Shown in pieces: positions 21,636 through 49,001 of a stretch of 64,000 nucleotides of DNA. Location: IMG/VR virus record IMGVR_UViG_3300040801_004532, positions 126,001-190,000 of that record, one strand, 5' to 3'. The notes beneath the pieces are model-generated. The model was not told the DNA's origin, did not search any database, and saw nothing but the letters and a program-made list of their open reading frames with translations. Made by a program: the position numbers and the translations under genes. Origin of the DNA: a virus. Numbering within the stretch: position 1 is the first letter of the stretch; each line of letters opens with the position of its first letter.

Positions 21636-21651
21636 ATCTATATATATAAAT
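21636..21651 (+). promoter_or_regulatory. Late-promoter-like element, 16-mer shared with RNA array
   Basis: ATCTATATATATAAAT is followed by TAGTGATAGG, 58 bp before the ATG of the first island gene. The identical 16-mer, with GATAGG downstream, is at 37773-37788 before the structured-RNA array. TATAAAT resembles the T4 late -10 (TATAAATA). No recognition factor is seen here, so it is a candidate only. Confidence 0.5.
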
Positions 21652-21708
21652 TAGTGATAGGCAGGGTTGGTTCGATTTTTTAGTTACCCATCAAAAGAGA
21701 GGTGATCA

Positions 21709-29782: not shown

Positions 29783-32782
29783 ATGAAACTTTTAAATGTT
29801 GAAAGCTTTACAAGGGGGCTAACTCCCGTAACTTCCACTGAATTAAAAACCAGATCTGGAGAACCACATCCAGAAGGATTATTTAGTGAAAAGATTTTTG
29901 GTGTGGAAGGTTCGTTGGACCGAAGCAAACGATATTCTTACATCAATTTAAATTCAAAAATCGTTCATCCTGCAGCATATAAACTCTTGAAACGTATTGA
30001 CTCACGAATTGAAAAATTCCTTAACACAGAGGAAAGTTATTCAGTAGATTCGGAAGGGAAAATGATAGCAGATGATAATGGAGTATCAGGAATTTCAGAG
30101 TTTATCGAAATATTTCCCAAAATAAAATTAAGGGGCGGAACAGCGGCCAGAGATAAGATTAATAAGGTTATAACTGATAGCTACAAAACAGGAACTCTAT
30201 TCATTGATAAACTCCCTGTTGTTCCGCCAGATTTCCGTCCGATGTACACAGACGAGGGAGGTAACTTAATTGTTGATGAACTAAATACATATTATCAAAA
30301 AATAATTAGAAAGGCTGCTCAAGTTAAAAGTGTTGGATCAGGAGGAGCACTTTTTAATCTATTGAATTTTTATTTGCAAATTGCAGTAAATGAACACGAT
30401 GAATATGTAAGGACAAAAATTGCAAAAAAGTCTGGACTAATTCGTTCTAACATGTTAGGAAAACGAGTTGATTTTAGTGCCCGTGGTGTTATTACTCCCG
30501 GACCACAATTAGATGTAAATGAAATAGGCGTTCCACTAAGATCAGCTGTAACTCTTTTTCAACCTTTTCTTATTCATTATTTCTTATTCTCAAAAAAATA
30601 TCCATATAAAGATATACTTGAGGAAGAAGTTAAAAAATTTACAGACTCCGAATTATCAGTTGATACACTTAACCGAGTGATTAAATCAATAAGAGTTGGA
30701 GATAAAGTTCCAGATAGACTTGAAAATTTATTTAAGCAAGCCGCTGAAGTTGTAATGAAGGGACGAGTTGTATTAGCAAAACGAGACCCTGCTCTTCATG
30801 AGGGTTCATACAGAGCTTTTAGACCAGTATTAGTTGATGGGCATACCATTCAAATGTGTACTCTCCAGGTTGGAGGTTTCAATGCGGATTTTGATGGTGA
30901 TATGATGGCATTATATCACCCTCTAACTAAAGAATCACAACAAGAAGCCAAAGAGAGAATGATGCGTGGGGTTGGCAGCAAGAATAGTAGACATGTAACA
31001 TTTGAACTTTCAAAAGAAATGGCTGTTGGACTTTATACTATGACAAAAAATGTTAGACGAGGGTCATCTCCAATTGCAGTTAGTGAGGAGGATCTTGAAA
31101 AAGCCAATGATCCATATATTCCCGTAAAGTATAGAGGAAAAGCTACAACAATGGGGCGAGCGATTTTCAATAGTGTATTTCCAACAAACTTTAGATTTAT
31201 TGATCAATTAGTAACAAAGAAAACAGTGAATAACTTGATACCTGAAATTATTGATCAATATGGCGATGAAGTGGCTGAAAAGGTTTTTTCAAAACTAGAA
31301 AAAATTGGCTTTAAATTTGCAACCATTATTTCTCCCACATTAACACTTGATATGATTGATATGCCTGATAGTATCGAACGAATCAGAGAAAAATTAAAAA
31401 ATTCAAGCCCGGGTGAAGCTGATAAACTACTTCGGGATGGCGAAAAAATAATGATTCAACATTTAAAAGATACTGGTTTATATGATCTCATTGAGTCAGG
31501 AGCAGGAAAGGGATGGGGACAACCAAGACAGATATTAGTTTCAAAGGGTGTAATATCAGATCCAAAAGGAAATGTTCTTCCGCCAATTGAAGGATCATTT
31601 GCTGAGGGTTTGAAAACAACAGAATTTTTTAATGCTGCATCCGGTGCTAGAAAAGGTATGGCGGACCGTGCATTGAATACAGCAGACACTGGTTATTTTA
31701 CAAGACAGCTTGTTTATGTTTTATCCCCAGTTGAAGCAAGCCCAACTATAAGAGATTGTAAAACAAAAAGAACTTTAAATTTAAGATTGACAAATGATCT
31801 AATAGATCGACTATCTGGACGATATATAATCGAGAGAGGAAGAGTTGAAAAATTTTCGTCAAGATATAAGGCTGGGGATACTATTAGATTAAGAACTCCA
31901 ATATTTTGTGAAACAAAAAAGATTTGTCATACCTGTTACGGAGATCTTTTAAAGAGACATAAAAGTCCCTTTGTTGGAATCATTGCTGGAGCATCAATTG
32001 GCGAGCGTGGAACACAGTTAATCATGAGAACATTCCATACTGGTGGTGCTGCAACATTTGCTCAATATGATGTTTTACAAGATATTTTTGACAATGATCC
32101 ATTAATTGAAGTAGACTTGAAGAAATACCTTACTCAATATGAGGATAAACTTATAGCTGCAAAACCATGTAAATTAACAATTGATTTGACCAATTATGAT
32201 ATGAATAATAATATCCAAATTAAAAGAGATTTAGTTTGGGTAAATCATTTGTTATCAAGAATTGAATATGATGATACAATCTTTAACATATCATTAGATT
32301 ATCCCGTTGAATTAACAAGAACTACAATGAATCAGATTGGAAAAGAATATTTAGAGTTTACATTTGCAAAGGATGATATAATGCTTGAAATTCCATTGCA
32401 AACTACAGAAATCAAAGAGCAGGTAAATTATGTTGGCAGGTTGTTGGGAGGAAAGGTTGTTTATAAAGATCCATCCCATTTATTGACAAAGATATTAAAA
32501 ATTTATGGTGGTAAGGTTTCTGATTTGGACCTTGTACATTTTGAGGTCTTGCTTTCACAAGTTTTACGAGATAAAAGAAATGATATGTTGCCAGCTCGAT
32601 TGGGACCAACTTGGGATCCAGTAATGATGAATATTAAAAATGTAGTATTTTCTTCAGGGTTCCTTCAGGGGTTGGCATTTGAAAATGTAAATAAGGCGAT
32701 AGAGACTGGGCTCATTTCAGAAGGAGAGCTTGAACCATCTATTCTCGGAAGGGTGTTGACAGGCGAGGTTATAACAAGATAA
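29783..32782 (+). CDS. rpoC: Multisubunit RNA polymerase beta-prime-like subunit
   Basis: 999 aa, shorter than bacterial beta-prime (about 1400). NADFDGD at about 367-373 is the catalytic Mg-binding loop. Upstream: KRVDFSARGVITPGP (switch region, about 230) and RAFRPVLVDGHTIQMC. Downstream: CETKKICHTCYGDL (zinc-ligand-like cysteines), GIIAGASIGERGTQLIMRTFHTGG (trigger-loop/bridge region, about 730). All core motifs lie in one chain, unlike split phiKZ-type subunits. Makes phage RNA independent of host polymerase. Confidence 0.9.
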   Translation: MKLLNVESFTRGLTPVTSTELKTRSGEPHPEGLFSEKIFGVEGSLDRSKRYSYINLNSKIVHPAAYKLLKRIDSRIEKFLNTEESYSVDSEGKMIADDNGVSGISEFIEIFPKIKLRGGTAARDKINKVITDSYKTGTLFIDKLPVVPPDFRPMYTDEGGNLIVDELNTYYQKIIRKAAQVKSVGSGGALFNLLNFYLQIAVNEHDEYVRTKIAKKSGLIRSNMLGKRVDFSARGVITPGPQLDVNEIGVPLRSAVTLFQPFLIHYFLFSKKYPYKDILEEEVKKFTDSELSVDTLNRVIKSIRVGDKVPDRLENLFKQAAEVVMKGRVVLAKRDPALHEGSYRAFRPVLVDGHTIQMCTLQVGGFNADFDGDMMALYHPLTKESQQEAKERMMRGVGSKNSRHVTFELSKEMAVGLYTMTKNVRRGSSPIAVSEEDLEKANDPYIPVKYRGKATTMGRAIFNSVFPTNFRFIDQLVTKKTVNNLIPEIIDQYGDEVAEKVFSKLEKIGFKFATIISPTLTLDMIDMPDSIERIREKLKNSSPGEADKLLRDGEKIMIQHLKDTGLYDLIESGAGKGWGQPRQILVSKGVISDPKGNVLPPIEGSFAEGLKTTEFFNAASGARKGMADRALNTADTGYFTRQLVYVLSPVEASPTIRDCKTKRTLNLRLTNDLIDRLSGRYIIERGRVEKFSSRYKAGDTIRLRTPIFCETKKICHTCYGDLLKRHKSPFVGIIAGASIGERGTQLIMRTFHTGGAATFAQYDVLQDIFDNDPLIEVDLKKYLTQYEDKLIAAKPCKLTIDLTNYDMNNNIQIKRDLVWVNHLLSRIEYDDTIFNISLDYPVELTRTTMNQIGKEYLEFTFAKDDIMLEIPLQTTEIKEQVNYVGRLLGGKVVYKDPSHLLTKILKIYGGKVSDLDLVHFEVLLSQVLRDKRNDMLPARLGPTWDPVMMNIKNVVFSSGFLQGLAFENVNKAIETGLISEGELEPSILGRVLTGEVITR

Positions 32783-32794
32783 CGGAGAATTTGA

Positions 32795-35700
32795 ATGATC
32801 AAATATGACTCATTAATTCAGTACACAAGAGTTGTAGATTCATTAAGGTTTCCTCTAGATCGAGACAAGCCATTTTTAATGGTCTATTTCTCTGAAAACT
32901 CCTTGTTTGCAAAAGATTATCCAAAGCTTAATTTGAGGAGAGTTGATTTTCGGCATGTGATTGTTCCGTTTACAAGATTGCCTGTCACAAGGTTGACTCC
33001 AGAAGTACGCGCAGCTTATAAAGAGTACAACCTTCGTCCATATAGTATGCAAATGAAATTCCCCAGTGATAAAAATCTTATCTTTGATACTACATTTTAT
33101 ACCAACACAGTTGATAAAACATATAAACCAAATACATACAGACAAAGAGCTGGATTCTTAATTCAAAATATTCTTAGTAAATCTTTTCAATCATTTCCTG
33201 ATAATTATAGAAAGATTCTTGCATATGCGGTCGATAAAAACGAGCCTCTCAATACATTTGTAAATAGAAAAATTTTCCCGATTTTAAGACAACTACGTTC
33301 AAAAGAAATTTATTTTGATGATCTTCTTTTGATTGTCATTGGTGATACAGATGCCAGATATAGACTTTTGGTAAAAGATCAAGATTATAAATTTCAACGC
33401 GTGGTTCAGTATGTAAAAACAATAAAGGCTGATGATACAGAAGAAGAAAAAGAACAGGAAGTTATCAATGCAACAATGAAGATAATGAAGCATGTAGGGT
33501 CCGATGTTGCTAAACCAGATACTGTTAAATATGCTGTTAAGGATTATCTTGACAAGAATCCAAGTATGGTTGATAAAATTGCTAATGGTGAATTAAGTAG
33601 CGAAGAGATGGAAAAGCTTACTGCTGCATCAATATTTTTTAGAACAAGTGGGGATTTAAGCAAAGCCAATCGGTTGGCAAAAGCGATACCAGCAGGAAAG
33701 GCAAAGACAGCCGTTCAGAGAATTAGCAGACAATATGAAGATGACCTTCTTAAGAAACAACCATCAGAGAATTTAAGCGACTATATTTATAATCAAACTG
33801 AACCTTTGGCAGAAATGGTTGATAAAAAAACACCTGAGCATATCTTTGATAAACGGAGAATCGACTTTGAAACAAATTTGAAAAAAGATATGTCTAATGC
33901 ATTTAAGGTTCTTGAGAATAGGGATATCCCGTTATCATTTCAGTCAATATCAATTAAACCAAAACCTCAAAAGGCCGGGGAGCTTTCAAAGTCTGATGAA
34001 GCCTTAGTTGAAATCAAACTAAAAGATAAGAGCGGTAGGGTTCACGACGTTCAACTTTCAATCCCTAGAATTGATCCGAATACAGGAACATTCAGGGTTA
34101 ATGGTAAACGAAAATGTATGATCAATCAAATTGTCCTGAATCCAATTAGTTTTCCCAAGGCATATGACTCAAAATTTGAAAGTTCGTATTCAAGTTTTCA
34201 TATTTATAGCAAACGAACCAAAAAATTAAAATACCTTGAAGTGTATATGGGTTCATTTAGGATGCCTCTTATGATCCTACTTTGCTACGCATTTGGTTTT
34301 CAGGAAATCTTGCAGCAATATGGAATAAAAGCACAAATAGTAAAAGAAAAGCCAAATAAAGATAAATATTTTTCAGAAGTTCCTAGTTCATATCTACTTT
34401 TTGAAAATGTTGATACAGAATTAAAAGAAGAATTAGTATCTTCATTTATCCATGCAAAGATTAATCAATATGAAATTGATAAGGAATTTTTATCTAAAAA
34501 ATATTTTAATGATTTGATTATGAAGATGACTGGACGTGTTGATGCTACATACCTAATTTCAAATAACATTGAAAATATAGTTGATCCAATAGTAAGGCAG
34601 GTCTTGATAAACCAACAATTACCATTTGAGTTACCACACATCATTCAATATATGTCAGAAAAGGTTGTAGCTGGTTTTGTTCAAGATAGAAACGATCTGA
34701 CAAATCAACGAATACGAAATTCGGAACTTCTTGTTCATTTGGCTCAAAAGCAATTATTAACAGCATATACTGAATACAGGCAACAATATTTAGCAGGAAA
34801 CAAAGATGCAACATTAAATGTTCCAGAGGGAAAAGTTTTAAGACAATTCGTTGGTCTGGAAATTGTACAAGATATGGAGTATGCGAATCCTGCTGAGGAG
34901 ATGGCTGCTATTACAAAAACGTCTCCGGTAGGTAAAACTGTTGGAGGTATTCCCGATAAACAAGCTGTCCAGTTAGATGCAAGAAATGTTCATACAACAT
35001 ATTTCGGAAATATTGATCCGCTTGATACAGCAGAAGGACCAAACATTGGTATTACCCAACAATTAACTGTTGATGCATATGTCACATCGGCTCGTGGATT
35101 GTTTGGAAGAAAGGCAATGTTGGATTCTGAATCCTCGGGGATTCTTTCAACATCTTCAGCTCTTGTCCCATTTATTGAAAACAATGAAGGTGCAAGAATT
35201 ATCATGTCTTGTAACCAGGTTAAACAGATGTTGCCTTTAAAAAACCCAGAGCCACCAATAGTCCAAACAGGTTATGAGTCATTATTAACAAATGTTCTAT
35301 CTGACAGCTTTGTTAAAAAATCACCATGTAAAGGAAAAATTGATAAAATAACTAATGATTATATTGACATAATTTGTACTGGCAATAAGAAACAGAGAAT
35401 AGATATTTCGCCTGTTCAATTGAAGTCTGGTAGCGGTAAAAACACCTTAAGTACATTCAAACCAATTGTTTCAAAGAATCAGTCTGTTAAAGAAAAGCAG
35501 ATTATTGCTGAGGGGAGTTGTATCTCTGGCGGAACAATTTCAATGGGTAGAAATTTGGCTTGTGCATATATGCCATACAAAGGATATAACTTTGAGGATG
35601 GTTTAGTAATAAATGAAAAATTGGTTAGCCAAAATAAACTAACATCGCTTCATGGTATTGATGTTGAGGCAACAGTCGAAAAAAATGATCGAGTAATTAG

Positions 35701-36880
35701 TATTGTTGAGCTGGGAAAACACACAGAAAAGGGCGACCCACTTTTTAGAAAATTTCCTGGTGATATTGATGAACTATTGGGTTATGACCAAGAAGAGGAT
35801 GAAAGTGTTGATACATATGATGGTCAAATTATTATCAAAAGTCCAGGTGGTCGTGTAGTTGATATTGATGTTTTCTCTAATCTTCCGCCTGATCATTTTC
35901 CAGCATTAAAACCTTTGATTGAAAGAACCAATAAAAAATTCAAAAAGCCAGCAAAAGATAAATTTACAGATAGGGGTATATCAATCAAAGGTATAAAAAT
36001 AGTTTTTAAAGTAGAACAAGAATTGCCAATTGGAATTGGAGATAAACTGTGTAATAGATTTGGTAATAAGGGAATAATTTCTTTAATTGAAAAAGATGAA
36101 TTAATGCCAAGAACTCCTTGGGGTGAAAGGCTTGATATTATTCTTAATCCCCTTGGGGTAATAAGCAGAATGAATATGGGCCAAATTTATGAGTTGTATT
36201 GTGGGTTGATTTCAAGATATGTTGCCAATCAAATTAAACGAGGAGCAAACAAATCTGAAGTAATCTCAATGTTTAGCGCAGTTGTAAAGGGGCTTGACAC
36301 CTCTCCAAATAATAAATTCAGTACAAAATTTTTAGCGAATTTGAAAAAATTAAGTACAGCTCAATATAATAAAATGATTGATCAAATTAAAAATGCAGGA
36401 TATATTCCAATTATTGTACCTCCATTTAAGGCGCCTTCTCACAAACAAATATTGCCCTTACTGAAAAAATTTAATCTGAAAACTGGATATAATTTATCAT
36501 TGCCTGAGTTTAATACAAAAACAAAAAACTCTGTTCCGTTTGGTTATTTGTATATTGCAAAGTTGGAGCATATTGGTAAGGATAAATTACACTCAAGATC
36601 AACCGGACCAACTGTTGGGAAGATATTACAACCAACCGGAGGGAAAAGAAGGGAGGGCGGACAAAGAATGGGAGAAGGTGATACATGGTCATTAGCATCA
36701 TATAATTGTCCACATTTATTATCAGAATTCTTTGGGCCACTATCAGATGACGTGGTAACAAAAAATGAAATCCTTACTGATATAATTCAAACTGGTGAAG
36801 CTGATTTTAGAGCTACAAAATCATCACCAACCAAAGATTTACTAAACGCATATTTCACATCGTTGATGTTGGGGGGATAA
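32795..36880 (+). CDS. rpoB: Multisubunit RNA polymerase beta-like subunit
   Basis: 1361 aa, near bacterial beta (about 1340). PLDTAEGPNIGI at about 743-754 (beta D region), NLACAYMPYKGYNFEDGLVI, IGDKLCNRFGNKGIISLI and GGKRREGGQRMGEGDTW near the C-terminus are hallmark beta motifs, with the Lys/Arg that contact the catalytic centre. N-terminal 300 residues are phage-like, with Lys/Asp-rich helices. Order beta-prime then beta is the reverse of bacterial rpoB-rpoC. 12 bp after rpoC, same operon. Confidence 0.92.
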   Translation: MIKYDSLIQYTRVVDSLRFPLDRDKPFLMVYFSENSLFAKDYPKLNLRRVDFRHVIVPFTRLPVTRLTPEVRAAYKEYNLRPYSMQMKFPSDKNLIFDTTFYTNTVDKTYKPNTYRQRAGFLIQNILSKSFQSFPDNYRKILAYAVDKNEPLNTFVNRKIFPILRQLRSKEIYFDDLLLIVIGDTDARYRLLVKDQDYKFQRVVQYVKTIKADDTEEEKEQEVINATMKIMKHVGSDVAKPDTVKYAVKDYLDKNPSMVDKIANGELSSEEMEKLTAASIFFRTSGDLSKANRLAKAIPAGKAKTAVQRISRQYEDDLLKKQPSENLSDYIYNQTEPLAEMVDKKTPEHIFDKRRIDFETNLKKDMSNAFKVLENRDIPLSFQSISIKPKPQKAGELSKSDEALVEIKLKDKSGRVHDVQLSIPRIDPNTGTFRVNGKRKCMINQIVLNPISFPKAYDSKFESSYSSFHIYSKRTKKLKYLEVYMGSFRMPLMILLCYAFGFQEILQQYGIKAQIVKEKPNKDKYFSEVPSSYLLFENVDTELKEELVSSFIHAKINQYEIDKEFLSKKYFNDLIMKMTGRVDATYLISNNIENIVDPIVRQVLINQQLPFELPHIIQYMSEKVVAGFVQDRNDLTNQRIRNSELLVHLAQKQLLTAYTEYRQQYLAGNKDATLNVPEGKVLRQFVGLEIVQDMEYANPAEEMAAITKTSPVGKTVGGIPDKQAVQLDARNVHTTYFGNIDPLDTAEGPNIGITQQLTVDAYVTSARGLFGRKAMLDSESSGILSTSSALVPFIENNEGARIIMSCNQVKQMLPLKNPEPPIVQTGYESLLTNVLSDSFVKKSPCKGKIDKITNDYIDIICTGNKKQRIDISPVQLKSGSGKNTLSTFKPIVSKNQSVKEKQIIAEGSCISGGTISMGRNLACAYMPYKGYNFEDGLVINEKLVSQNKLTSLHGIDVEATVEKNDRVISIVELGKHTEKGDPLFRKFPGDIDELLGYDQEEDESVDTYDGQIIIKSPGGRVVDIDVFSNLPPDHFPALKPLIERTNKKFKKPAKDKFTDRGISIKGIKIVFKVEQELPIGIGDKLCNRFGNKGIISLIEKDELMPRTPWGERLDIILNPLGVISRMNMGQIYELYCGLISRYVANQIKRGANKSEVISMFSAVVKGLDTSPNNKFSTKFLANLKKLSTAQYNKMIDQIKNAGYIPIIVPPFKAPSHKQILPLLKKFNLKTGYNLSLPEFNTKTKNSVPFGYLYIAKLEHIGKDKLHSRSTGPTVGKILQPTGGKRREGGQRMGEGDTWSLASYNCPHLLSEFFGPLSDDVVTKNEILTDIIQTGEADFRATKSSPTKDLLNAYFTSLMLGG

Positions 36881-37772: not shown

Positions 37773-37788
37773 ATCTATATATATAAAT
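37773..37788 (+). promoter_or_regulatory. Late-promoter-like element before RNA array (16-mer shared with island)
   Basis: ATCTATATATATAAAT then AACTGAGATAGG: the same 16 bases, followed by GATAGG, as at 21636-21651 before the GC-rich island. RNA 1 starts 24 bases after this 16-mer, a suitable distance for a start site. Confidence 0.5.
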
Positions 37789-37812
37789 AACTGAGATAGG
37801 TGATTTATAACT

Positions 37813-37899
37813 AAAAAATTGGAAGACTTGTTTGTAGATTCAGGAATGCCACCGTTGAGGTAACCAACTCCAACTACAACAACCAGCTTCCAATTTTTT
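37813..37899 (+). ncRNA. Y-RNA-like structured RNA 1
   Basis: Outer helix: AAAAAATTGGAAG (37813-37825) pairs perfectly with CTTCCAATTTTTT (37887-37899). It contains the block GGAAGACT...TGTAGATTCAGG, then CTACAAC near the 3' side, and a small internal hairpin GTTG/CAAC. No tRNA-like T-arm. Ends in T's. It is the first of four RNAs with the same outline, upstream of the Ro60-like gene. Confidence 0.75.
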
Positions 37900-37908
37900 C
37901 ACTTTTTT

Positions 37909-38017
37909 AATCAGAAGACTTTGTGTAATTTCAGAGGTGATTGGTTCACCATTGCTCTACAAAAGCGACGCACCCGTTCGACTCGGGATAATAATTACAC
38001 GTTTTACTTCTGATTTT
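37909..38017 (+). ncRNA. Y-RNA-like structured RNA 2 with tRNA-like core
   Basis: Outer helix AATCAGAAG (37909-37917) with CTTCTGATT (38007-38015); inner helix GTGTAATT with AATTACAC. The enclosed part forms a D-arm-like GGTG-ATTGGTTC-ACC (37936-37950), an anticodon-arm-like TTGCT-CTACAAA-AGCGA with 7-nt loop (37952-37968), and a T-arm CCCG-TTCGACT-CGGG (37973-37987). No CCA. A tRNA-like fold inside a closed RNA, as described for bacterial Y RNAs. Confidence 0.8.
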
Positions 38018-38023
38018 AATTTT

Positions 38024-38121
38024 ATTCTAGAAGACTATTTGTAGTTTCAGAAGATACTTGAACGTATCACGCACTTGTAAATGCGCAAACCTACTACATT
38101 CAATTCTTCTAGAATCCTTTT
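38024..38121 (+). ncRNA. Y-RNA-like structured RNA 3
   Basis: Outer helix ATTCTAGAAG (38024-38033) with CTTCTAGAAT (38106-38115), block AGAAGACT...TGTAGTTTCAG. Inside: hairpin GATAC-TTGAAC-GTATC (D-arm-like) and CGCA-CTTGTAAA-TGCG (anticodon-arm-like). No clear T-arm. Ends CCTTTT. Confidence 0.75.
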
Positions 38122-38123
38122 CA

Positions 38124-38265
38124 AACCTGAAAGACTGTTGGTGGTTCCAGACAAAGAAGCTCGATTGGTTGAGCATTTGCTTAATGTGCAAACGGTTGTG
38201 GGTTCAAGTCCCATCATTGTCACCAAAAGGTGTAAACCACTGTCCTAACTTTCAGGTTCCATTTT
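38124..38265 (+). ncRNA. Y-RNA-like structured RNA 4, contains a 76-nt tRNA-shaped domain with CCA
   Basis: Outer helix AACCTGAAAG (38124-38133) with CTTTCAGGTT (38249-38258). Between them 38150-38225 folds as a 76-nt tRNA: acceptor GACAAAG/CATTGTC (one A-A mismatch), D-arm GCTC-GATTGGTT-GAGC, anticodon arm TTTGC-TTAATGT-GCAAA, 5-nt variable loop, T-arm GTGGG-TTCAAGT-CCCAT, A plus CCA. Positions 8 and 14 deviate from normal tRNA (A and G). Probably a tRNA mimic carried by a longer RNA. Confidence 0.8.
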
Positions 38266-38270
38266 GATTG

Positions 38271-38329
38271 ATGGGCTGAGTGTGATTTTAGTGATCTTTC
38301 GGGGAGGGCTTGATCACATTCAGACCCAT
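38271..38329 (+). ncRNA. Additional hairpin RNA element 5
   Basis: ATGGG..TGAGTGTGAT pairs with ATCACATTCAGACCCAT with one bulge; alternatively GTGATC pairs with GATCAC. It lacks the GAAGACT block of RNAs 1-4, so it may be a leader structure or separate RNA. A second small hairpin, AACC/GGTT (38343-38364), follows. The remaining 75 bases to the Ro60 ATG hold the ribosome site AAAGGAGGAAGG. Confidence 0.5.
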
Positions 38330-38439
38330 TAGTCATAACACAAACCTTTTAGCGAAAGAGGGTTCATTTGCAACATTCTAATTTCTAAAAAAATTGGATA
38401 TAAGAGTTTTACGTCGAAATTACGAAAGGAGGAAGGCGA

Positions 38440-39957
38440 ATGACGAGACAGCAGTTATCTATTGATTCTGGGATACTTCAGTTTGCGCCAAAAGGGGCGT
38501 TCTATGAAGAAACTGATGAACAATTCCAACAGGTTTCAAGGATGTGGAATGAGCTATTCAATTATGACAGAACCCTTTTTTGTTTAATCACTCTTCTTGG
38601 AGGGACAGGATTTTCAAAGGGGGTAATGAGCCACATTCTATTGTCAAATCCCCAAAGCTCCACAGGAAGAGAACTTATCCCAGAAGGTCTTTCGGTTGAT
38701 TATGAAACCGAGGTAATTCTATACAATCTATCAAAGGAGAAAACCCCAAGAGCATTAAAAAATCTTTTGATGTTGACCGGCCGTGAAGGTCAAACAAAAG
38801 TAAATAATGCAAGAACAAGGAAACTAATCCTTGAATATATCTTTAATCGAGGTCATGATTCCCTCGACAATTTGGCTGTAAATTATAAAGGAAAATTAAA
38901 AACTCTTGTTCGTCATGCCCTTGGAAGACAAGATCTGGCAAAGATTCTAATGGGCGACGACCAACTTTTTCAAAAGTGGATTGGTCGTTATCATAAAAAT
39001 GCACTTCCGGTTGTTTTATACCTTTTCGATAGACCAATACCAAACGATCAAGTGTTTGCATATTATAAGAAAGTTGAACAGGTGTTAAAGCTAAAGGAAG
39101 CAGCACAAAGACGTGACGTTGAAGCGTTTCGACATTTCATGGATGGGCTTCCGAGACTAACAGTTCTCGGATATCGAAATACATATAAGGTTCCAATCGA
39201 AAAAAGTGAAATTTTTGAAAAAACCCAAATGTCAAATCGTCAAGCCATTCAGATGGAAGCAGCGGCGAAACGATCTGGCACAAAGGTCAAGGTAAACTAT
39301 AAAAACCAAGACGTTTATGATTTATGGAAAGCATTGTATTTTAAGCTACAGCAAAGCGACGATGAAAATTTGGATAAGATTGTTGAGGCAATCGGAGAGA
39401 AGGATGGAAATAAACTTGACATCGGCGAAGTGAGTGTTGTATTTGATGTGTCAAGATCCATGGTTGGTAGCGACCAACGACCCCTTCATCCATTCCTTAC
39501 AGGGTTATCCATATTGTCTGTGCTGGATAATATCCAAAATGTTTTCTATGTTGGCGGAACATCAATTCCAACAAAAATCAATGACAAAGAAATGTACTTT
39601 GTTTTTCCATCAAACGAAACAGCATTGTGGAAGGGACTGGTAGATGCTGTAGCGTCTGGGTCAAAGAAAATTATTGTCATTTCAGATGCTTATGAAAATT
39701 CTCCAAAGGGTATGTTTCAACATGTATATAACCATTTCAAAGACAAGGAGAACATAGAGATTATTCATATTAACCCAGTATTCTCGGCTGATTCACAACA
39801 AGGGTCTGCTAGAAAATTAGCAGATGATATTGAGCCGCTTCCTGTCTCAAGTTATAAATTTCTCGAGACAGAAATTATTTTTAAAAGAATGTTGGAAAAT
39901 AAGGATCTCGTGAAAAACTTACTCGTTGGGAAATACAGAAAACTGATAGGAGGTTAA
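38440..39957 (+). CDS. Ro60/TROVE-type ring protein (TROVE + vWA domains)
   Basis: 505 aa, about the size of human Ro60 (538) and bacterial Rsr. The N-terminal 300 residues are helical and HEAT-like as in TROVE, opening with a FAPKGAFYEETDEQFQQV-type segment and including KLILEYIFNRGHDSLDNLAVNYKGKLKTLVRHALG. The C-terminal vWA domain starts EVSVVFDVSRSMVG, with DVSRS (about 336-340) as the metal-binding DxSxS motif. Ro proteins bind Y RNAs and misfolded RNAs and assist RNA processing. The Y-RNA-like array directly upstream strengthens the call. AAGGAGGAAGGCGA precedes the ATG. Confidence 0.85.
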   Translation: MTRQQLSIDSGILQFAPKGAFYEETDEQFQQVSRMWNELFNYDRTLFCLITLLGGTGFSKGVMSHILLSNPQSSTGRELIPEGLSVDYETEVILYNLSKEKTPRALKNLLMLTGREGQTKVNNARTRKLILEYIFNRGHDSLDNLAVNYKGKLKTLVRHALGRQDLAKILMGDDQLFQKWIGRYHKNALPVVLYLFDRPIPNDQVFAYYKKVEQVLKLKEAAQRRDVEAFRHFMDGLPRLTVLGYRNTYKVPIEKSEIFEKTQMSNRQAIQMEAAAKRSGTKVKVNYKNQDVYDLWKALYFKLQQSDDENLDKIVEAIGEKDGNKLDIGEVSVVFDVSRSMVGSDQRPLHPFLTGLSILSVLDNIQNVFYVGGTSIPTKINDKEMYFVFPSNETALWKGLVDAVASGSKKIIVISDAYENSPKGMFQHVYNHFKDKENIEIIHINPVFSADSQQGSARKLADDIEPLPVSSYKFLETEIIFKRMLENKDLVKNLLVGKYRKLIGG

Positions 39958-39961
39958 TTAT

Positions 39962-40930
39962 ATGGCAAATATCTTTGAAACCCTAAAAATCAAAGGAGTT
40001 GGAATCGGTTCTATTCAGAGCGTTGATGAAATGACAGTCATCCCTTTGATTGGTGAAGACCGTGGGGATGTTGCCAGTCCGTCCAGTTTAAAATTTCAAA
40101 GAACCACAAGTTATGGTTCAATGCAGTTTAAAAATGAAGACAGTCGCCCAGCTATTGTGCCATCCAATTTCATGATACGAGGTCGGGGAGCACAAGATCA
40201 TGCAATGGCCTCATCTGGAGTTCTGAAATCAAGGGAAGTGAAAACATTTGAAACTGCTTGTTGTATTGAAGAAACACAGGGCGGCTTCCTAACTCATGAA
40301 GGAAATGAAGAAGATATTCTACCTATAGAACTACGTCGAAATCTCTTGGATGCAAACAAGAGACGAGACAGAAACTATGGAAAATTGTGGAGCAATATTA
40401 AAGATTGGCTCAATGGGCTTACCCTACAAAGAAAAAGTCATGGCGCCCATTTAAGAAATTTCTATGATGATCATAACGTAAGAACAGCACTTGAAGCATT
40501 TGCTGCTGAGTTTGAACCGGTTGATGGTCAAATCGGGGCAATCATTATGTTTTCTGGGATCCCTGTCGGCATTGAGATTATGCCAACAGCAGATCATTGG
40601 AACTCATATTGGCAGCAGCTTCTGCGAGGGTGTTATGGTTCAGAACTTCTAAGGATGAAGATGTTGGGCAAAGTTTCACAGTCAACTCTAATTTTGCCTG
40701 ATATTCCAGATGATGCAAATCCTATGGAAGTCAAAAATATTTTAGAAACATTTATGAACCACATTCAACAGGAAGTTCTGCCTGTAATTCAGAACATTAA
40801 TATCACATCCAACACAAGAGTATCATCAGATGGATCACTTAGAACTCAGTTAGTTAGAACTGATGGCGGGGGTGGAGGAGATGTTATTATTCAAGAATCA
40901 ACCCCAATTTATGTCTCAATTATTTTATAG
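39962..40930 (+). CDS. ARPP-1-like protein next to Ro60 gene, 322 aa
   Basis: GVGIGSIQSVDEMTVIPLIGE, then AIVPSNFMIRGRGAQDHAMASSGVL and FETACCIEETQGGFL follow the pattern of the ARPP-1 domain (PF20208), in which an N-terminal strand, a ..GxGxQD segment and CCxEExxGG recur. ARPP-1 has been linked by computational work to prokaryotic conflict systems. It starts 4 bp after the Ro60 stop (GGAGGTTAATTATATGG), so the two are in one operon. C-terminus is Gly-rich (TDGGGGGD). Family call by memory. Confidence 0.6.
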   Translation: MANIFETLKIKGVGIGSIQSVDEMTVIPLIGEDRGDVASPSSLKFQRTTSYGSMQFKNEDSRPAIVPSNFMIRGRGAQDHAMASSGVLKSREVKTFETACCIEETQGGFLTHEGNEEDILPIELRRNLLDANKRRDRNYGKLWSNIKDWLNGLTLQRKSHGAHLRNFYDDHNVRTALEAFAAEFEPVDGQIGAIIMFSGIPVGIEIMPTADHWNSYWQQLLRGCYGSELLRMKMLGKVSQSTLILPDIPDDANPMEVKNILETFMNHIQQEVLPVIQNINITSNTRVSSDGSLRTQLVRTDGGGGGDVIIQESTPIYVSIIL

Positions 40931-42851: not shown

Positions 42852-44108
42852 ATGACCGACGACACAGCCAAAGAAGAATTTAAATACCATGAACGATTGA
42901 ACATCCCCGTCCTTACAATCGAAAAGATCAAACAGCTTTTGAAGAATGATATTGCTGACACGCTACATGCGTGGAAGGAAGGGAGAAAAGTAGACAAACA
43001 ATGTTACAGGATCATTGGCCCTGCTGGTGTCGGCAAGACACAAATTTGTGGTCAAATCGCTGCTGAATTGACAAATGAACTATTCGGGGAGTGGAACAAG
43101 GCACGACCCACTCCAGAACATAAACTATTTGATATGATTATGGTCAAAGCTCCTGTTCTATCAAGGGATGACTTTATCATTCCGTTTCCGGTAACAGATG
43201 GCAAGGACTTTTCATTCAGAATGCTATATTCTGACTTTGTTCCGAAAGAGGTTGGATCATTTGGAATATTTGTCATTGATGAAGTATCAAGAGGTGATCA
43301 TCAACTCCAGCAGCTTCTATGGCAGGTCCAAAATGAGTACGCCGTCCACAATCTGCAATTCCCAGAAGGATGGTTTGTGATCTCAGTAGACAACCCTGAT
43401 GACTCAGAGTACTCCATGGATACGCTTGAAGATGCTGCTGGTTTACGAAGGCAATTGCATCTATACGTTGAGGTAAGTCCTATCGACTTCCTCAACTATG
43501 CAATTGCAAATGATTTTCACCCTCTTGTCATTGAGTGGATTCAGATGCGTCCGGAATATCTATACGATTTCAACGCTCAAAAGGTCGGGTCGGTTTATGC
43601 AAACCCAGCCAGCTATGAGAAGCTTTCGGATCATTTGTGGAAAATGCAAATGAGACGAGGAAGCTTGGATTATGATGAAATCGAAAACAAAGCATCTGGG
43701 CTTCTCAATACCAATATGTCCCAACTCTTTGTCTCGTTTGCAAGAGACAAGAAAGACATCAATCCAAAAGATGTATTCTATGAATTTGATAAGGTTGAAA
43801 AACAAATCAAGGCTCTATTAAAAGAAAACAATATGTCCAAATTGGGCGAGCTTATGATCGGGTTCTGTACGTTTATGACAACATCAATGCCCGAGTATGA
43901 CGATAGAAAGTTAGAAAACGTCTATAAGTTCCTATTGATGATGCCCATTGATACAGCGGCTCTTTTTATCTCACAAATTGATGGCTTTGACCGGTCATCA
44001 AAAGCATTTAAATACATGACTCAAATCCATCTCACTCTTCTGAAAAAGCATCCACAATACAAGAAAGAGTTCTATGATCCAATCGTAAGAGCTGGCGATG
44101 GACGATAG
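42852..44108 (+). CDS. MoxR-type AAA+ ATPase
   Basis: 418 aa. Walker A GPAGVGKTQI at about 56-65; Walker B IFVIDEVSRGDHQLQQLLWQ at about 139-158 with the arginine/ sensor region AAGLRRQLHLYVEV. Typical AAA+ ATPase of MoxR style. Directly upstream of a vWA-domain gene, the usual partner: MoxR-vWA pairs act as chaperones for metal insertion or complex assembly. AGAGGGATACTA precedes the ATG. Confidence 0.75.
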   Translation: MTDDTAKEEFKYHERLNIPVLTIEKIKQLLKNDIADTLHAWKEGRKVDKQCYRIIGPAGVGKTQICGQIAAELTNELFGEWNKARPTPEHKLFDMIMVKAPVLSRDDFIIPFPVTDGKDFSFRMLYSDFVPKEVGSFGIFVIDEVSRGDHQLQQLLWQVQNEYAVHNLQFPEGWFVISVDNPDDSEYSMDTLEDAAGLRRQLHLYVEVSPIDFLNYAIANDFHPLVIEWIQMRPEYLYDFNAQKVGSVYANPASYEKLSDHLWKMQMRRGSLDYDEIENKASGLLNTNMSQLFVSFARDKKDINPKDVFYEFDKVEKQIKALLKENNMSKLGELMIGFCTFMTTSMPEYDDRKLENVYKFLLMMPIDTAALFISQIDGFDRSSKAFKYMTQIHLTLLKKHPQYKKEFYDPIVRAGDGR

Positions 44109-44117
44109 GGGGAAAAC

Positions 44118-45374
44118 ATGCAACCCTCAAGTTCAGTTACAAGTGAACGAATAAAGGTTCTGATTGCCAAATTCGTCCTAAAATACAATTATTGGGGGTA
44201 TCTATTTTCTCGAGTCAGGAGACAGGCGGATCCAAACATGCCATCAATTATGGGCATTGCACCTGAACCTGACGGATCAATTTGTTTATATTATAACCCC
44301 CCATTGATTGATAATACAGACGATGAAAACATCACCAAGGTGATTGAGCATGAAGGACTGCATCTATTAAATAAGCATGTTCCAAGGCTTATTAGAATTC
44401 TTGCAAATGATCCTGATCCATTAAGAAGGGAATCTAAAGCAGAAATATGGAATATTGCAGCTGATTGCTGTGTAAACACACAAGGGAAACTAGGTGAAAG
44501 TCTTACCATTAATGGCAAACCCTGGCCCATGTGTCTCCCCGCAAGATATAAAATGCCTGAGGGACAAATAACCGAGTTTTATTATAACTGGTTGCTTGAA
44601 AATGCAAAAAGCCAACCTATGCCAATGATCGGGGACCATGGAAAATGGACCAAAAATCTAAAGGGAGTTGCTGATCTTAGTGCTCTCAGTAGAAAAGTAG
44701 ATCAACATATAAGATCAATAATCAAAGAATCAGCAAAGACCTTCAACAAGGATCGTGGAAGGTTGCCGTCACATATTGCTGATCTTATTCAGGGAGCTCT
44801 AGCTCCACCAAAAGCACCATACTATCAAATCATTAGAAAATTAATCAAGGGGTCAAGATTAACAAAATTCAAAAGATCCCCAACCAAAATAAATAGAAAA
44901 CGAACTTATACATTTCATTTGGCGTCAATGCCAGATCTCCCTCAAATTTCGCCCTTTCCTGGAAAGAGTCGAGATTTTACATTTGATATTGTCGTTATGA
45001 TTGATACATCAGGAAGTATGTCAAACGATGATATAAAAGAGGGATTGAGTGGTATTAAAAATATCGTTGAAAATGATAGACATTGTCATACCACAGTCCT
45101 GGAAGTTGATGCTGGCGTTGAAAAAGAATATGAATGTAAAAAAATAAGGGATATTCAATTTAATGTAAAGGGACGAGGCGGAACAACACTAACCCCTGGT
45201 TTAGAAAGAGCCAGAGAACTTGGTTGTGATGTTTGTCTTGCATTTACGGATGGGTATACCGAAAATATCAATGCCTTAAGCAGAAAAAGGCTACCTAAGA
45301 AACTTATTTGGGTTATAACCAAAGGTGGGTCGCCTAATCAGATTAATAAAACAGGATTTGTGGTGAAAATATGA
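44118..45374 (+). CDS. vWA protein with HExxH metallopeptidase-like N-terminus
   Basis: 418 aa. N-terminal VIEHEGLHLLNKH (about 73-85) has the HExxH zinc signature, as in the VWA-like DUF2201 family. C-terminal vWA: VVMIDTSGSMSNDDIKEGL (DxSxS, DTSGS) and later FTDGYTE, typical MIDAS. Fits the MoxR partner. A second vWA gene (Ro60) lies 4 kb upstream. Overlaps the next small gene by 4 bp. Confidence 0.72.
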   Translation: MQPSSSVTSERIKVLIAKFVLKYNYWGYLFSRVRRQADPNMPSIMGIAPEPDGSICLYYNPPLIDNTDDENITKVIEHEGLHLLNKHVPRLIRILANDPDPLRRESKAEIWNIAADCCVNTQGKLGESLTINGKPWPMCLPARYKMPEGQITEFYYNWLLENAKSQPMPMIGDHGKWTKNLKGVADLSALSRKVDQHIRSIIKESAKTFNKDRGRLPSHIADLIQGALAPPKAPYYQIIRKLIKGSRLTKFKRSPTKINRKRTYTFHLASMPDLPQISPFPGKSRDFTFDIVVMIDTSGSMSNDDIKEGLSGIKNIVENDRHCHTTVLEVDAGVEKEYECKKIRDIQFNVKGRGGTTLTPGLERARELGCDVCLAFTDGYTENINALSRKRLPKKLIWVITKGGSPNQINKTGFVVKI

Positions 45375-45532: not shown

Positions 45533-45544
45533 CCGGAGGTCTTG

Positions 45545-47335
45545 ATGACGAGTTCGTATAGTGCAAAAGATGTTAGAGTTCTAGAAGAGGTAGAACATAT
45601 AAGATTGAATCCTGGGATGTACATCGGCGAGACAAGTAACCCAGTACATTTAATAGAAGAAGCCCTTGATAATGCACTAGACGAAGCGTTGGCAGGCTAT
45701 GCAAAAATAATTGCGGTCATGATAAACTCGAAAGAGAATAAATTCTCTATATTAGATAACGGTCGGGGTATACCATTATCAAATGATACCCCGATCGTTA
45801 TCTCCACTAAGTTATTTTCTGGAGCTAAGTTCCAAGATAAAAAGGCTGCATACGAGATCAGTTCTGGTCTTCACGGAGTTGGTCTCGTTGCAGTCAATGC
45901 TCTAAGCAAATTTTACAAGGTTGAAATATATCGAAATAAAAAGAGGGCAATTTATGAGTTTCAAAATACAAAATTAAAGAAAACAAAAATTGACCCATTT
46001 ACAGACGAACCACCTTTTTCAACCAAAATTGAATTTATTCCAGATAAGAAATATTTTGATGATCTGTTTCCTGATACAGAACGAATTAGGGATCGCCTGA
46101 CAACTGCTTCAGCAGAAATGCCAAATGATGTAACATGTGTTTTGATTATTGATGATAACCGCGAAGTAATAAAACGTGATACAGTAACTCATTTCGTTGA
46201 GGAATGTTTAGCTGAAAAGAAAAGCTCAGTTAATGTTACTCATCTTCATTCAGAGAAAAAACCTGAAAAATTTGATGTAATGTTTACATATGAGGATGCT
46301 GGACCCGTTTCTCCAAAGATAATATCATCAGTGAATCTACTTCCTGTTAAATCAGGGGGTACACATGTGAATGTATTTTATGATGTGCTAAAAGATTTCT
46401 TCTCTGCAAAGGCGAAGAAACATGGTTTTCGATTTCAACCAAATGATTGTTTATATAGGTTGAGAGCGTATCTGATGTTAAGTCTTGTTGAACCCAAATT
46501 CTCTGGACAAACAAAAGATACTCTTATAAATAGAAAAGGTTATTTTGATAAGTTTGCAAAGGACTTCAGACAACAACTGGACGAATTTGCACAACAATTT
46601 GAACCATTGATGATTGAGTATCTTCAAAGATTTCATGATTACAGAACCAAGCTAGATTCAAAGAAAATTACAAAAACCGGAACGAATGGGAAACGAGCTT
46701 CAACAAAATTCACTAAACTACGAGATTGTACAAGTCGTAATGGTGAGCTATATATTGTTGAAGGTGAATCTGCTGGTGGTTCTATTATTCAATCTAGAGA
46801 TCCCAACAAGCACGCAATCCTGCCATTAAAAGGAAAATCTATTCCTAATGCTATTACCAAAAAAGATATTATCAAAAACAAAGAAATATCCGAATTGATA
46901 ATGGCTTTGGGTACAGGAGTAGGTCCACATTTTGACATATCCAAAATGAGGTATGACAAGATCATCTGTGCATCAGATGCGGACCCCGATGGTGGACATA
47001 TCACATGCCTTGTAACAATGGCGATTGCAACCTTGATGCCTGAAGTAATCAAGCAGGGAAGGTATTTCATAGCACAAACACCACTGTTTGCGATAAATGA
47101 AAAGAAAACCTTCTTGCCATTGTGGGATGAAAAATCTCTAAAAGAAGCCAGAGAGAATAACAGATCAATAACTCGTTTTAAAGGATTGGGAGAATTATCA
47201 CCCTTTCAATTAAAGATATGTTTATTAGAAGAAAAGACAAGACGAATAGAACCAATAACATATAGCGAAGACATTAATAGTCTTGAAAAGTTGTTTTCAG
47301 AAGCGAGCGAAAAAAGAAAGTTGGTGAGCGAATGA
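45545..47335 (+). CDS. Type II DNA topoisomerase, GyrB/ParE-like (T4 gp39-like)
   Basis: 596 aa. ATP-binding EEALDNALDEALAGYAK and DNGRGIPL (GHKL motifs), ISSGLHGVGLVAVNALS; then TOPRIM with IVEGESAGGSI (about 403-413) and DADPDGGHI (about 477-485). Full-length, not split as in T4 (gp39 + gp60). GGAGGTCTTG precedes ATG 45545 (in-frame TTG at 45542 is unlikely). The partner GyrA-like subunit is at 50576. Relaxes and segregates phage DNA. Confidence 0.88.
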   Translation: MTSSYSAKDVRVLEEVEHIRLNPGMYIGETSNPVHLIEEALDNALDEALAGYAKIIAVMINSKENKFSILDNGRGIPLSNDTPIVISTKLFSGAKFQDKKAAYEISSGLHGVGLVAVNALSKFYKVEIYRNKKRAIYEFQNTKLKKTKIDPFTDEPPFSTKIEFIPDKKYFDDLFPDTERIRDRLTTASAEMPNDVTCVLIIDDNREVIKRDTVTHFVEECLAEKKSSVNVTHLHSEKKPEKFDVMFTYEDAGPVSPKIISSVNLLPVKSGGTHVNVFYDVLKDFFSAKAKKHGFRFQPNDCLYRLRAYLMLSLVEPKFSGQTKDTLINRKGYFDKFAKDFRQQLDEFAQQFEPLMIEYLQRFHDYRTKLDSKKITKTGTNGKRASTKFTKLRDCTSRNGELYIVEGESAGGSIIQSRDPNKHAILPLKGKSIPNAITKKDIIKNKEISELIMALGTGVGPHFDISKMRYDKIICASDADPDGGHITCLVTMAIATLMPEVIKQGRYFIAQTPLFAINEKKTFLPLWDEKSLKEARENNRSITRFKGLGELSPFQLKICLLEEKTRRIEPITYSEDINSLEKLFSEASEKRKLVSE

Positions 47336-47547
47336 AAAAGATAATTCTTCTGATGATCATTTTTCTATTATTTGGATGCACTGTATCAATGAAACCGGAT
47401 GGTTACGATACAGAAATGCGAAATACAAAGCGAGAATATATTTATGATAGGCATGGATATTATCAAGGCTACATTGAAAAAACAGACTATGGAACAACCT
47501 TTTATTATGATAAAGATGGAAGGTTGAAAGGATTTTCAAGAAAGTAG
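47332..47547 (+). CDS. Predicted small lipoprotein, 71 aa
   Basis: MKKIILLMIIFLLFGCTVSMK is a lipoprotein signal with lipobox LFGC and lipidated Cys16. Mature part is charged and Tyr-rich (GYYQGYIEKTDYGTTFYYDKDG), resembling a repeat-like module. It overlaps the topoisomerase gene by 4 bp. Phage lipoproteins often act in superinfection exclusion; inference. Confidence 0.6.
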   Translation: MKKIILLMIIFLLFGCTVSMKPDGYDTEMRNTKREYIYDRHGYYQGYIEKTDYGTTFYYDKDGRLKGFSRK

Positions 47548-47561
47548 GAGGTAACATTAAG

Positions 47562-49001
47562 TTGAATGGAACAGAAAATTCTCTTTACTTAGCTGATTGT
47601 ATTGATCTTTTGAGAGAATGGTACTCAAAAGGTCAAACAAACTTTATTGATCTTATTTATATTGATCCTCCGTTTAACAGCAACAGAAATTATAATGTTC
47701 TGTTCAACTCAAAATTAACGGAGGAAGCATTCCAAGATACATGGTCAAGTGTATCATATTTGGATGAATTAGAAGGCATCGCTACAATGTCCCCAAATCT
47801 ATATAACTTTCTGAAGATGTTAGAAACAACAGGTCTTCCAAAATCATATATTTCATATTTAACAAAGATGAGTATTCGATGTTGGTATATGAAGGAAATG
47901 TTGAAAGATACGGGAAGTTTTTATTATCATTGTGATCCAACAGCTGGTCACTATATTAAAATAATTTTAGATTATATATTTGGAATGAATAATTTTAAAA
48001 ATGAAATTATATGGTGTTATAAAACTGGTGGACTTTCTACAGAATATTTTCCTAAAAAACATGATACTATATTTTTCTATACAAAAACAAATTCATATAC
48101 TTTTAATCCACAAAAAGAAACGAAATTATCAAATGAGATGCAAAGAGCTTTAAAAATACACCCAGAAGAATTTTTTGATGATAACGATGGAAAAGGTATA
48201 TACACATGGTATTATAGACCGGGACATAAAAAATATCCAAATGGACTAAAACAATACCTTGAAGCATACGTTAGAGATTATTGGGACATACCTGCTCTAA
48301 CAAATACATCAAAAGAACGTCTTGGATACCCAACTCAAAAACCAGAGAATCTATTAGAAAGAATAATTTTAGCATCTTCAAATGAAGACGATCTTGTAGC
48401 AGATTTCTTCATGGGTGGAGGAACAACAATTACAGTTTCTGAAAAGTTGAATAGAAAATGGCTGGGTGTTGATATTAACAACAGATCAATACAAATAACA
48501 CATGATCGAATAACATCTCTAAAGAAAATTTTGAAAAAAGATTATTTTATATATGGCATCCCAAGATCATCAGAAGAATTACGAAAACTTGTTGATGAAA
48601 ATGTTTTAGGAAAAGAGAAAAACAGCCGTTTTGCTTTTGAAGATGTTATTGTCAAATACTATCTTAATGATGTAATTGGTAATGAAAAGAAAGTGGGTGA
48701 TCATTCTATTGATGGTCGCTTTATGTTTAAATACAACGGAAAAATGAGAAATGGTCTTGTTCAGGTAACAACTGGAGCAGGTATTGGTCATTTCAAATCA
48801 TTCTGTTCTGAAATTGGAAAAGGTACTGGAAATCTTGGTGTTTATATTACATTTAAAGATAAAGTTTCTTCTGGTATGATCCGTGAAGCAAAGAGTTATG
48901 GAAAATTGGGTCATGTTGATAAGATCCAAATATTGACAGTTGAAGAACTAGTTGATGAACGAAAAATGTTTGAAGTACCAAAAGATGTAATGACAATTTA
49001 A
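47562..49001 (+). CDS. DNA adenine methyltransferase fused to a nuclease-like C-terminal domain lacking its Lys
   Basis: 479 aa; TTG start 47562 follows AGGAGGTAACATTAAG. DPPFNSNRNYN at about 35-45 is the catalytic DPPY-type motif; VADFFMGGGTTITVSEKLNRKWLGVD is motif I (F-G-G loop), in beta-class order. The C-terminal 145 aa (FEDVIVKYYLNDV ... DHSIDGRFMFK ... GLVQVTTGAGIGH) resembles the Mrr/restriction-like domain with GIDG and QVK, but the expected Lys is Thr. So modification without restriction is likely. Methylation would protect phage DNA. Confidence 0.75.
   Translation: MNGTENSLYLADCIDLLREWYSKGQTNFIDLIYIDPPFNSNRNYNVLFNSKLTEEAFQDTWSSVSYLDELEGIATMSPNLYNFLKMLETTGLPKSYISYLTKMSIRCWYMKEMLKDTGSFYYHCDPTAGHYIKIILDYIFGMNNFKNEIIWCYKTGGLSTEYFPKKHDTIFFYTKTNSYTFNPQKETKLSNEMQRALKIHPEEFFDDNDGKGIYTWYYRPGHKKYPNGLKQYLEAYVRDYWDIPALTNTSKERLGYPTQKPENLLERIILASSNEDDLVADFFMGGGTTITVSEKLNRKWLGVDINNRSIQITHDRITSLKKILKKDYFIYGIPRSSEELRKLVDENVLGKEKNSRFAFEDVIVKYYLNDVIGNEKKVGDHSIDGRFMFKYNGKMRNGLVQVTTGAGIGHFKSFCSEIGKGTGNLGVYITFKDKVSSGMIREAKSYGKLGHVDKIQILTVEELVDERKMFEVPKDVMTI

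Follow-up and report, generated by a model that had tools for sequence, protein, structure and literature searches.

A probable Ro60-type ribonucleoprotein locus with an array of Y-like RNAs and an ARPP-family gene in a jumbo-type phage

Ro60 is a human lupus antigen, and a 2014 study by Chen et al. reportedly located Y RNAs close to Ro60 in many bacterial and some phage genomes. Bacterial Y RNAs combine a basal stem bound by the protein Rsr with a tRNA-like domain that binds PNPase (PMC8394870), and the same review likens the RNA YrlA to the D, T and acceptor arms of transfer RNA (tRNA). Jumbo phages with TROVE proteins have also been discussed (PMC7824862). Here we describe a locus in a stretch of 64,000 nucleotides (hereafter, the window), corresponding to positions 126001–190000 of the 248,136-base IMG/VR virus record IMGVR_UViG_3300040801_004532, which represents a jumbo-type phage encoding RNA polymerase subunits. 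The locus comprises an array of tandem hairpin RNAs, a gene for a very distant relative of Ro60 and a gene of the ARPP family, all on the + strand. It is very likely a Ro60-type ribonucleoprotein (RNP) locus, and a divergent Ro RNP drawing on the array, the Ro-like protein and the ARPP is, with good probability, the best explanation overall.

The Ro60-like protein (505 aa; 38440–39957, + strand) consists of a helical-repeat region and a C-terminal vWA domain. It had no match to Pfam TROVE (PF05731, E up to 10) or to a Pfam vWA model, sequence searches against Pfam, NCBIfam, PHROGs and PDB returned nothing real, and PF05731 was found neither in this record nor in 14 related records. Prediction by AlphaFold with a 44-sequence alignment gave a predicted local distance difference test score (pLDDT) of 88.5 and a predicted template modelling score (pTM) of 0.84; a single-sequence prediction (pLDDT 38.7) was not interpreted. 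Foldseek comparison with PDB returned nine matches below E 0.001, all of them Ro60 (8.8e-7 to 6.6e-4; among others 9nfa, with E 8.8e-7, 1yvp, 2i91, 1yvr and 9nen), aligned end to end at 10–13% identity, with vWA-only proteins ranking behind them from E 2.8e-3. Viral structure matches included the predicted ‘Ro-like RNA binding protein’ of Gordonia phage VanLee. Profile alignment by hhalign against five canonical Ro60 sequences gave a probability of 95.9% (E 5.1e-9) and covered both TROVE and vWA, compared with 4.6% against a single canonical TROVE sequence. The metal ion-dependent adhesion site (MIDAS) is intact: D336, S338 and S340 are present in 89 of 89 sequences, position 394 is T or S in all 89, and D416 is retained in 88. 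Given the fold matches, the hhalign profile match and the conserved MIDAS, the protein is predicted to be a distant Ro60 homologue lying outside the Pfam TROVE model. An earlier note on this DNA had named it a TROVE plus vWA Ro60-like protein, an assignment that Foldseek and hhalign uphold and for which Pfam offers no match.

Upstream of this open reading frame (ORF), five hairpin RNAs occupy positions 37813–38335 with a spacing of 6–9 nt. All follow a common plan, in which a perfect closing helix is followed by an ACU/YUA internal loop, an inner helix of 6–11 bp and a block such as UUCAG that opens the head. The closing helices of RNAs 1–5 measure 13, 9, 10, 10 and 10 bp and differ in sequence, while the 5′ side of the internal loop begins with ACU in RNAs 1–4 and with GCU in RNA 5. 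RNA 1 (37813–37899, +; z −3.67, covariance model E 0.0013) has an inner TTGTAG/CTACAA helix with a U bulge, RNA 2 (37909–38015, +; z −4.04, E 4.4e-7) has the inner helix TGTGTAATT/AATTACACG, and RNA 3 (38024–38115, +; z −5.20, E 2.9e-7) carries inner TGTAGT/ACTACA and two small hairpins. RNA 4 (38124–38258, +; z −3.10) has a closing helix AACCTGAAAG/CTTTCAGGTT and an inner helix TGGTGGTT/AACCACTG, and encloses a complete tRNA. RNA 5 (38265–38335, +; covariance model E 0.01) is a short form, GGGCTGAGTGTGATTTTAG...GATCACATTCAGACCC, with an 11-bp inner helix. With z-scores between −3.1 and −5.2, RNAs 1–4 folded better than nearly all of their shuffles. When the architecture was scanned for under strict criteria, five matches lay upstream of the Ro-like gene and none downstream, against 0.33 per shuffle; these numbers were used in preference to those of a looser scan, which gave a false match at window position 37384 and counts of 106 upstream, 39 downstream and 25 shuffled.

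The earlier note had described four tandem RNAs with perfect closing helices of 9–13 bp, and both their positions and their helices hold, except that the 3′ ends given for RNAs 2–4 overran the helix by 2–7 nt and that the fifth RNA had been missed. The shared block it had pointed out (GACT..TGTRATTTCAG), with its matching 3′ strand, is real; its statement that all RNAs end in T-rich tracts fits RNAs 1 and 2 well, and RNAs 3 and 4 just loosely.

Covariation analysis was based on 39 trimmed cores from nine genomes. Without a given structure, RNAalifold returned exactly two helices, and compensatory both-side changes were seen in 15 of 15 helix pairs, although the cores had been taken from a scan requiring pairing, which inflates such counts. 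The covariation score was 0.659, against 0.276 for shuffled alignments (0 of 500) and 0.12–0.22 for slid partners, in line with the proposal that differing but complementary ends are compensatory evidence for structure. In a check free of the pairing bias, 52 sites were picked by a 5′ sequence motif alone in close relatives; 62% of them had a perfect closing helix, 8 bp or longer, compared with 7% when the downstream bases were shuffled. A covariance model built from the cores and run over 723 kb of loci returned 31 matches with E no higher than 1, of which a single borderline one (locus L079) lay outside the arrays, and recovered two members outside its training set (L025:3670–3735 and L019:3368–3434). 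In close relatives of the Ro-like gene (L019–L027; nine loci, two of which are duplicates of each other, 37–62% identity), arrays of some three to nine RNAs are the rule.

The head of RNA 4 contains a tRNA-like domain (38150–38225, +) with acceptor, D, anticodon (AAT) and T arms in normal order, identified by Rfam RF00005, ARAGORN and alignment. The RF00005 match (38150–38222) scores 53.2 bits, above the 29-bit tRNA cut-off, and ARAGORN labels the cloverleaf ‘Ile, AAT’. This cloverleaf has an acceptor stem of its own and ACCA at its 3′ edge, and is enclosed by the two further helices of the common plan. In RNA 2, D-like, anticodon-like and T arms follow one another in tRNA order, the D-arm lying 5′ of a T-loop at 37977, and the inner helix replaces the acceptor stem. 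Both the complete domain and this partial one had been overlooked before. Throughout the window clade, D precedes T in every classified domain and an anticodon arm is present.

These RNAs share with YrlA a basal stem, an internal loop, a second helix, an effector domain and a gene near that of a Ro60-like protein, and together with the strong covariation this bears out their description as Y-RNA-like. The permuted order of YrlA, which in the Rfam alignment runs T-arm, capped stem, D-arm, without an anticodon arm, is found in neither RNA 4 nor RNA 2. Searches with known models, as had been proposed, gave no match in the array for Rfam YrlA (RF02553) at E up to 10, its 69-bit cut-off not being reached, nor for Rfam metazoan Y RNA, whereas the covariance model built from the cores did detect arrays across the loci. 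Distant relatives of the Ro-like gene, in particular L052 and L034, have upstream RNAs of the permuted YrlA type (37.3, 34.3 and 31 bits); these lie below the Rfam cut-off, at L052 2117–2818 and L034 3752–3886. Only full-length matches inside arrays were used here, because the Rfam YrlA search fires in 12 of 14 control genomes via tRNA parts. As one protein family thus pairs with permuted and unpermuted RNAs alike, the divergent Ro60 family is linked to the classical Y RNAs.

Four nucleotides after the Ro-like gene lies a gene for a 322-aa protein of the ARPP-1 family (39962–40930, +; PF20208, E 2.5e-25), whose residues Q78 and C101 are invariant (82 of 82). Relatives of the Ro-like gene were collected by tblastn and degenerate-peptide scans, giving 89 loci, a count that includes some duplicate contigs. 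An ARPP-family gene lies downstream in 87 of the 89, tRNA-like RNAs lie upstream in most, and the order of RNA, Ro-like gene and ARPP gene is near-invariant. Pfam confirmed ARPP-1 in the window and at L001, L016, L019 and L071, and ARPP-2 in Nostoc plasmids. Relatives of the Ro-like protein are carried by an uncultured 462-kb phage, Alkaliphilus and Nostoc plasmids, 62 IMG/VR loci and 22 bacterial genome contigs, the latter including Planctomycetes, Deltaproteobacteria, Minicystis, Kapabacteria, Bacteroidota and gammaproteobacteria, with one labelled Pacearchaeota. Viral contigs searched with one or two sequences yielded nothing, or only the copy of the LR756500 phage; a five-sequence alignment opened up the family. 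Beside a TerD gene in the Alkaliphilus plasmid pB6464 (L016 4262–4727), an 829-nt gap before the Ro-like gene apparently holds three Y-like RNAs, read by eye, one of them also found by the scan. Taken together, sequence and structure predictions point to a divergent Ro60 subfamily linked to ARPP and accompanied by Y RNAs that mimic tRNA without permutation.

Similar RNAs were seen farther afield. Most Ro-like genes are preceded by tRNA-like genes detected by ARAGORN, and the anticodons of these are often unusual (TTA ‘stop’, TCA, ACA, ATA or unreadable). A flanking helix with a score of at least 8 was present around 34 of 110 such genes, compared with 4 of 31 tRNAs in the phage’s own cluster, and at distant loci it mostly lay 11–20 nt before and 15–24 nt after the cloverleaf. 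Examples come from a planctomycete, (GAUUCGAGG)ACUAGCACGUCAUUACAG-cloverleaf-...CCUA(CCUCGAAUC), a deltaproteobacterium, (GAUCGAGGC)ACUGUU..., and the phage at L047, (GUACCGAGA)ACUGUGG.... In Minicystis rosea (L112), the divergent Ro-like gene has a canonical TROVE gene ~4 kb upstream; there, ~50 tRNA genes over 13 kb enclose the canonical gene and the divergent Ro-like/ARPP pair.

Eighteen nucleotides before RNA 1, the window has an exact match to the motif TCTATATATATAAATAACTGA (37774–37794, +), of which 0.01 sites would be expected by chance at up to two mismatches. A motif of this kind also precedes the array in L020, L022, L025 (twice) and L027. This AT-rich, promoter-like motif (TCTATATATATWAATAWSTGA) has 12 sites in the 248-kb record at up to three mismatches, all on the + strand; further sites lie at window positions 21637–21657 and at record positions 14642, 49154, 52871, 91273 and others, one of them directly before a tRNA cluster. 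It is most likely a phage promoter, and its sites probably form a phage-specific promoter class. Between the array and the Ro-like ORF lies a leader element, AAAAAAATTGGATATAAGAGTTTTACGTCG (38387–38416, +), which has a single site in the record; seven of eight close relatives have a recognisable version of it immediately ahead of their Ro-like ORF. It may serve as a second promoter or in autoregulation.

The array begins after an 82-aa gene ending at 37753, and is preceded farther upstream by an RNA polymerase beta′-like gene (window 29783–32782) and an adjoining beta-like gene (32795–36880). Downstream, window 42852–45374 holds an AAA ATPase gene (phrog_1297) paired with a DUF2201 metallopeptidase/vWA gene, similar to the MoxR/vWA-peptidase pair reported from jumbo phages (PMC7824862), and window 45542–49001 holds a GyrB/ParE-type topoisomerase subunit, a small ORF and an N6/N4 DNA methyltransferase. 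The record’s tRNA genes, ~28 on one strand and including Ile tRNAs, lie outside the window at record positions 53842–82765, 80–110 kb from the array. They include a tRNA with a CUA anticodon, and a transfer-messenger RNA with the predicted tag ADDYYTEVALAA lies in the same cluster. The CUA tRNA prompted us to consider recoding of TAG, which was rejected: TAG serves as the stop codon of 5 of the 57 long frames, and long genes run uninterrupted.

A mechanism can be outlined by analogy with the Rsr/Y RNA model (PMC8394870, PMC7790460). A single phage promoter probably drives the five RNAs, the Ro-like ring/vWA protein and the ARPP-family protein. The Ro-like protein may bind the basal stem around the ACU/YUA loop, as Rsr does on the lower stem of bacterial Y RNAs, and the RNAs would stabilise it and gate its cavity. 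The tRNA-shaped head would recruit or decoy host enzymes that recognise tRNA, such as PNPase, tRNA-modifying enzymes or anticodon nucleases. Host PNPase is a possible partner, since none of the 15 records encodes the PNPase family; an attractive alternative, given that the heads keep the anticodon arm absent from YrlA, is that they would decoy or sense anticodon nucleases, and competitive inhibition has been floated for YrlA (PMC7790460). For the ARPP, the ends of RNAs or of nucleotides are possible substrates: sugar moieties are the predicted target of ARPP (PMC9503650), and 4 of the 15 records, though not this one, encode RtcB RNA ligase, so a setting of RNA-end repair would fit. The likely benefit would be that RNA, and tRNA especially, is surveilled or protected during infection by phages with tRNA clusters of their own. 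A role in RNA surveillance or tRNA protection is a tentative suggestion drawn from analogy, with somewhat less than even chances, and any single target deserves less confidence still. A more far-reaching version, a distinct class of Ro RNP whose complete unpermuted cloverleaf mimics, with interchangeable anticodon loops, would join ARPP in decoying or sensing tRNA-cutting (anticodon-nuclease) defences, the arrays being kept by jumbo phages, megaplasmids and bacterial chromosomes, is in our estimate rather unlikely.

The cloverleaf in RNA 4 might suggest that these are ordinary tRNA genes in hairpin precursors, from which RNase P and RNase Z would free working tRNAs, the hairpins being processing or transcription signals. 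Besides its 53 bits as a tRNA and its ACCA edge, embedded anticodon loops keep U33 (20 of 26) and a purine at position 37 (23 of 26), counts that may partly reflect ARAGORN’s own preferences, and normal tRNA clusters also occur at many distant loci. However, the record already has its ~28 tRNA genes, Ile included; the 26 embedded anticodons are erratic, comprising 20 different triplets, of which TTA (stop) occurs twice and others read AAT or are unreadable; RNAs 1–3 and 5 have the same base and yet are not tRNAs; heads of the RNA 2 type use the inner helix and have no acceptor stem; and the outer helices covary. Such precursors are therefore improbable. The position of the RNAs in a 5′ leader, on the same strand, closely spaced and behind one promoter-like motif, would also suit a purely cis-acting role, as attenuators or processing sites through which the Ro-like/ARPP mRNA is regulated, without any function in trans. 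This explanation, which we rate as quite improbable, does not sit well with a copy number of ~3 to 9 or with L001, where 1.4 kb and several genes separate the tRNA-containing RNA from the Ro-like gene downstream of it; nor was any alternation of terminator and anti-terminator seen, the lone terminator-like match being the D-arm of the tRNA domain. A protein gene immediately preceded by tandem RNA repeats also recalls type III toxin-antitoxin loci, in which structured RNAs neutralise the protein encoded downstream, but the protein has a Ro60 fold rather than any known type III toxin fold, the repeats are 70–135 nt long with tRNA heads, and the second gene is an ARPP in nearly every locus, which makes this resemblance hardly credible as an explanation.

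Several observations nevertheless weigh against a Ro60-type RNP. The source is a metagenomic contig. The global TM-score of the predicted structure to Ro60 is just 0.38–0.48, and therefore either domain placement differs or the model is imperfect. RNAs 1, 3 and 5 have reduced heads without a recognisable T-arm, that of RNA 5 having no tRNA domain, and the covariance model, run over the 723 kb, does not find RNA 4. To these should be added the inflated pair counts mentioned above, the failure of the scan to find a Y-like RNA at some distant loci, and the fact that this record is among the 15 without a PNPase family member, so that such a partner would be the host’s.

Dozens of other phages have this gene set, as do plasmids and some bacterial chromosomes, a distribution that suggests a branch of the Ro/Y-RNA systems not recognised so far and would extend Ro60/Y-RNA biology to a protein branch missed by standard family models. 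The near-constant ARPP pairing suggests an enzyme acting with Ro RNPs, and permuted and unpermuted heads within one protein family allow the purpose of tRNA mimicry to be asked. Cultured carriers (the Alkaliphilus sp. B6464 plasmid, Minicystis rosea, and relatives of Rhodopirellula and Stieleria) make the module testable without a phage.

Compared with known systems, several features of the locus stand apart. In archaea, TROVE genes occur in 20 of 29 tRNA gene clusters (PMC6333295), a Ro60-family gene within a tRNA array as at the Minicystis locus; the passage on them concerns TROVE-domain proteins with ordinary tRNA clusters and mentions no Y-like RNAs. Published ARPP systems include ARPP-1 proteins with an invariant cysteine and glutamine, as in the gene at 39962–40930, and their partners, as far as the sections consulted go, are ADP-ribosylglycohydrolase, HIRAN, WYL and deacetylase, a Ro60-like gene with Y-like RNAs not being among them. 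In the literature, our coverage of which was incomplete, we found no description of a Ro60 branch outside Pfam, of near-constant ARPP pairing or of unpermuted tRNA heads in long arrays.

Canonical Ro60, used as a tblastn query, matched 340 phage records, among the matches listed mostly annotated ‘Ro-like RNA binding protein’, and did not find the divergent family. Canonical proteins of this kind (in mycobacteriophages, Gordonia and Streptomyces phages; for example Bigswole, Sixama and Yaboi) are likewise phage-borne and near tRNA genes, and YrlA-like RNAs lie nearby in the loci examined. They differ in being of the Pfam TROVE type, which the divergent family is not, and in having Y RNAs with the permuted T-then-D order (L115:4916–5014, L113:1735–1812) that reach up to 46.8 bits against the YrlA model; no ARPP was annotated in the four canonical regions viewed. 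The earlier note had considered an array of four in a phage unusual; phage Ro60 is known and arrays are usual in close relatives, and the novelty is of another kind. With the Rsr and Y RNA/YrlA systems of Deinococcus radiodurans and Salmonella, the locus shares a Ro60 fold with a vWA MIDAS, RNA genes beside the protein gene, and an RNA plan of basal stem and tRNA-like effector domain. Unlike them, it has a protein invisible to Pfam TROVE and RNAs far below the YrlA cut-off, with heads that keep the normal arm order and an anticodon arm in place of the T-arm, capped stem and D-arm of YrlA, set in arrays of 3–9 RNAs with an ARPP gene downstream. Phage Ro60/Y RNA pairs are thus not new in themselves; what is new is a Ro60 branch outside Pfam, its ARPP partner, the arrays usual in its close relatives and the unpermuted tRNA domains of its RNAs.

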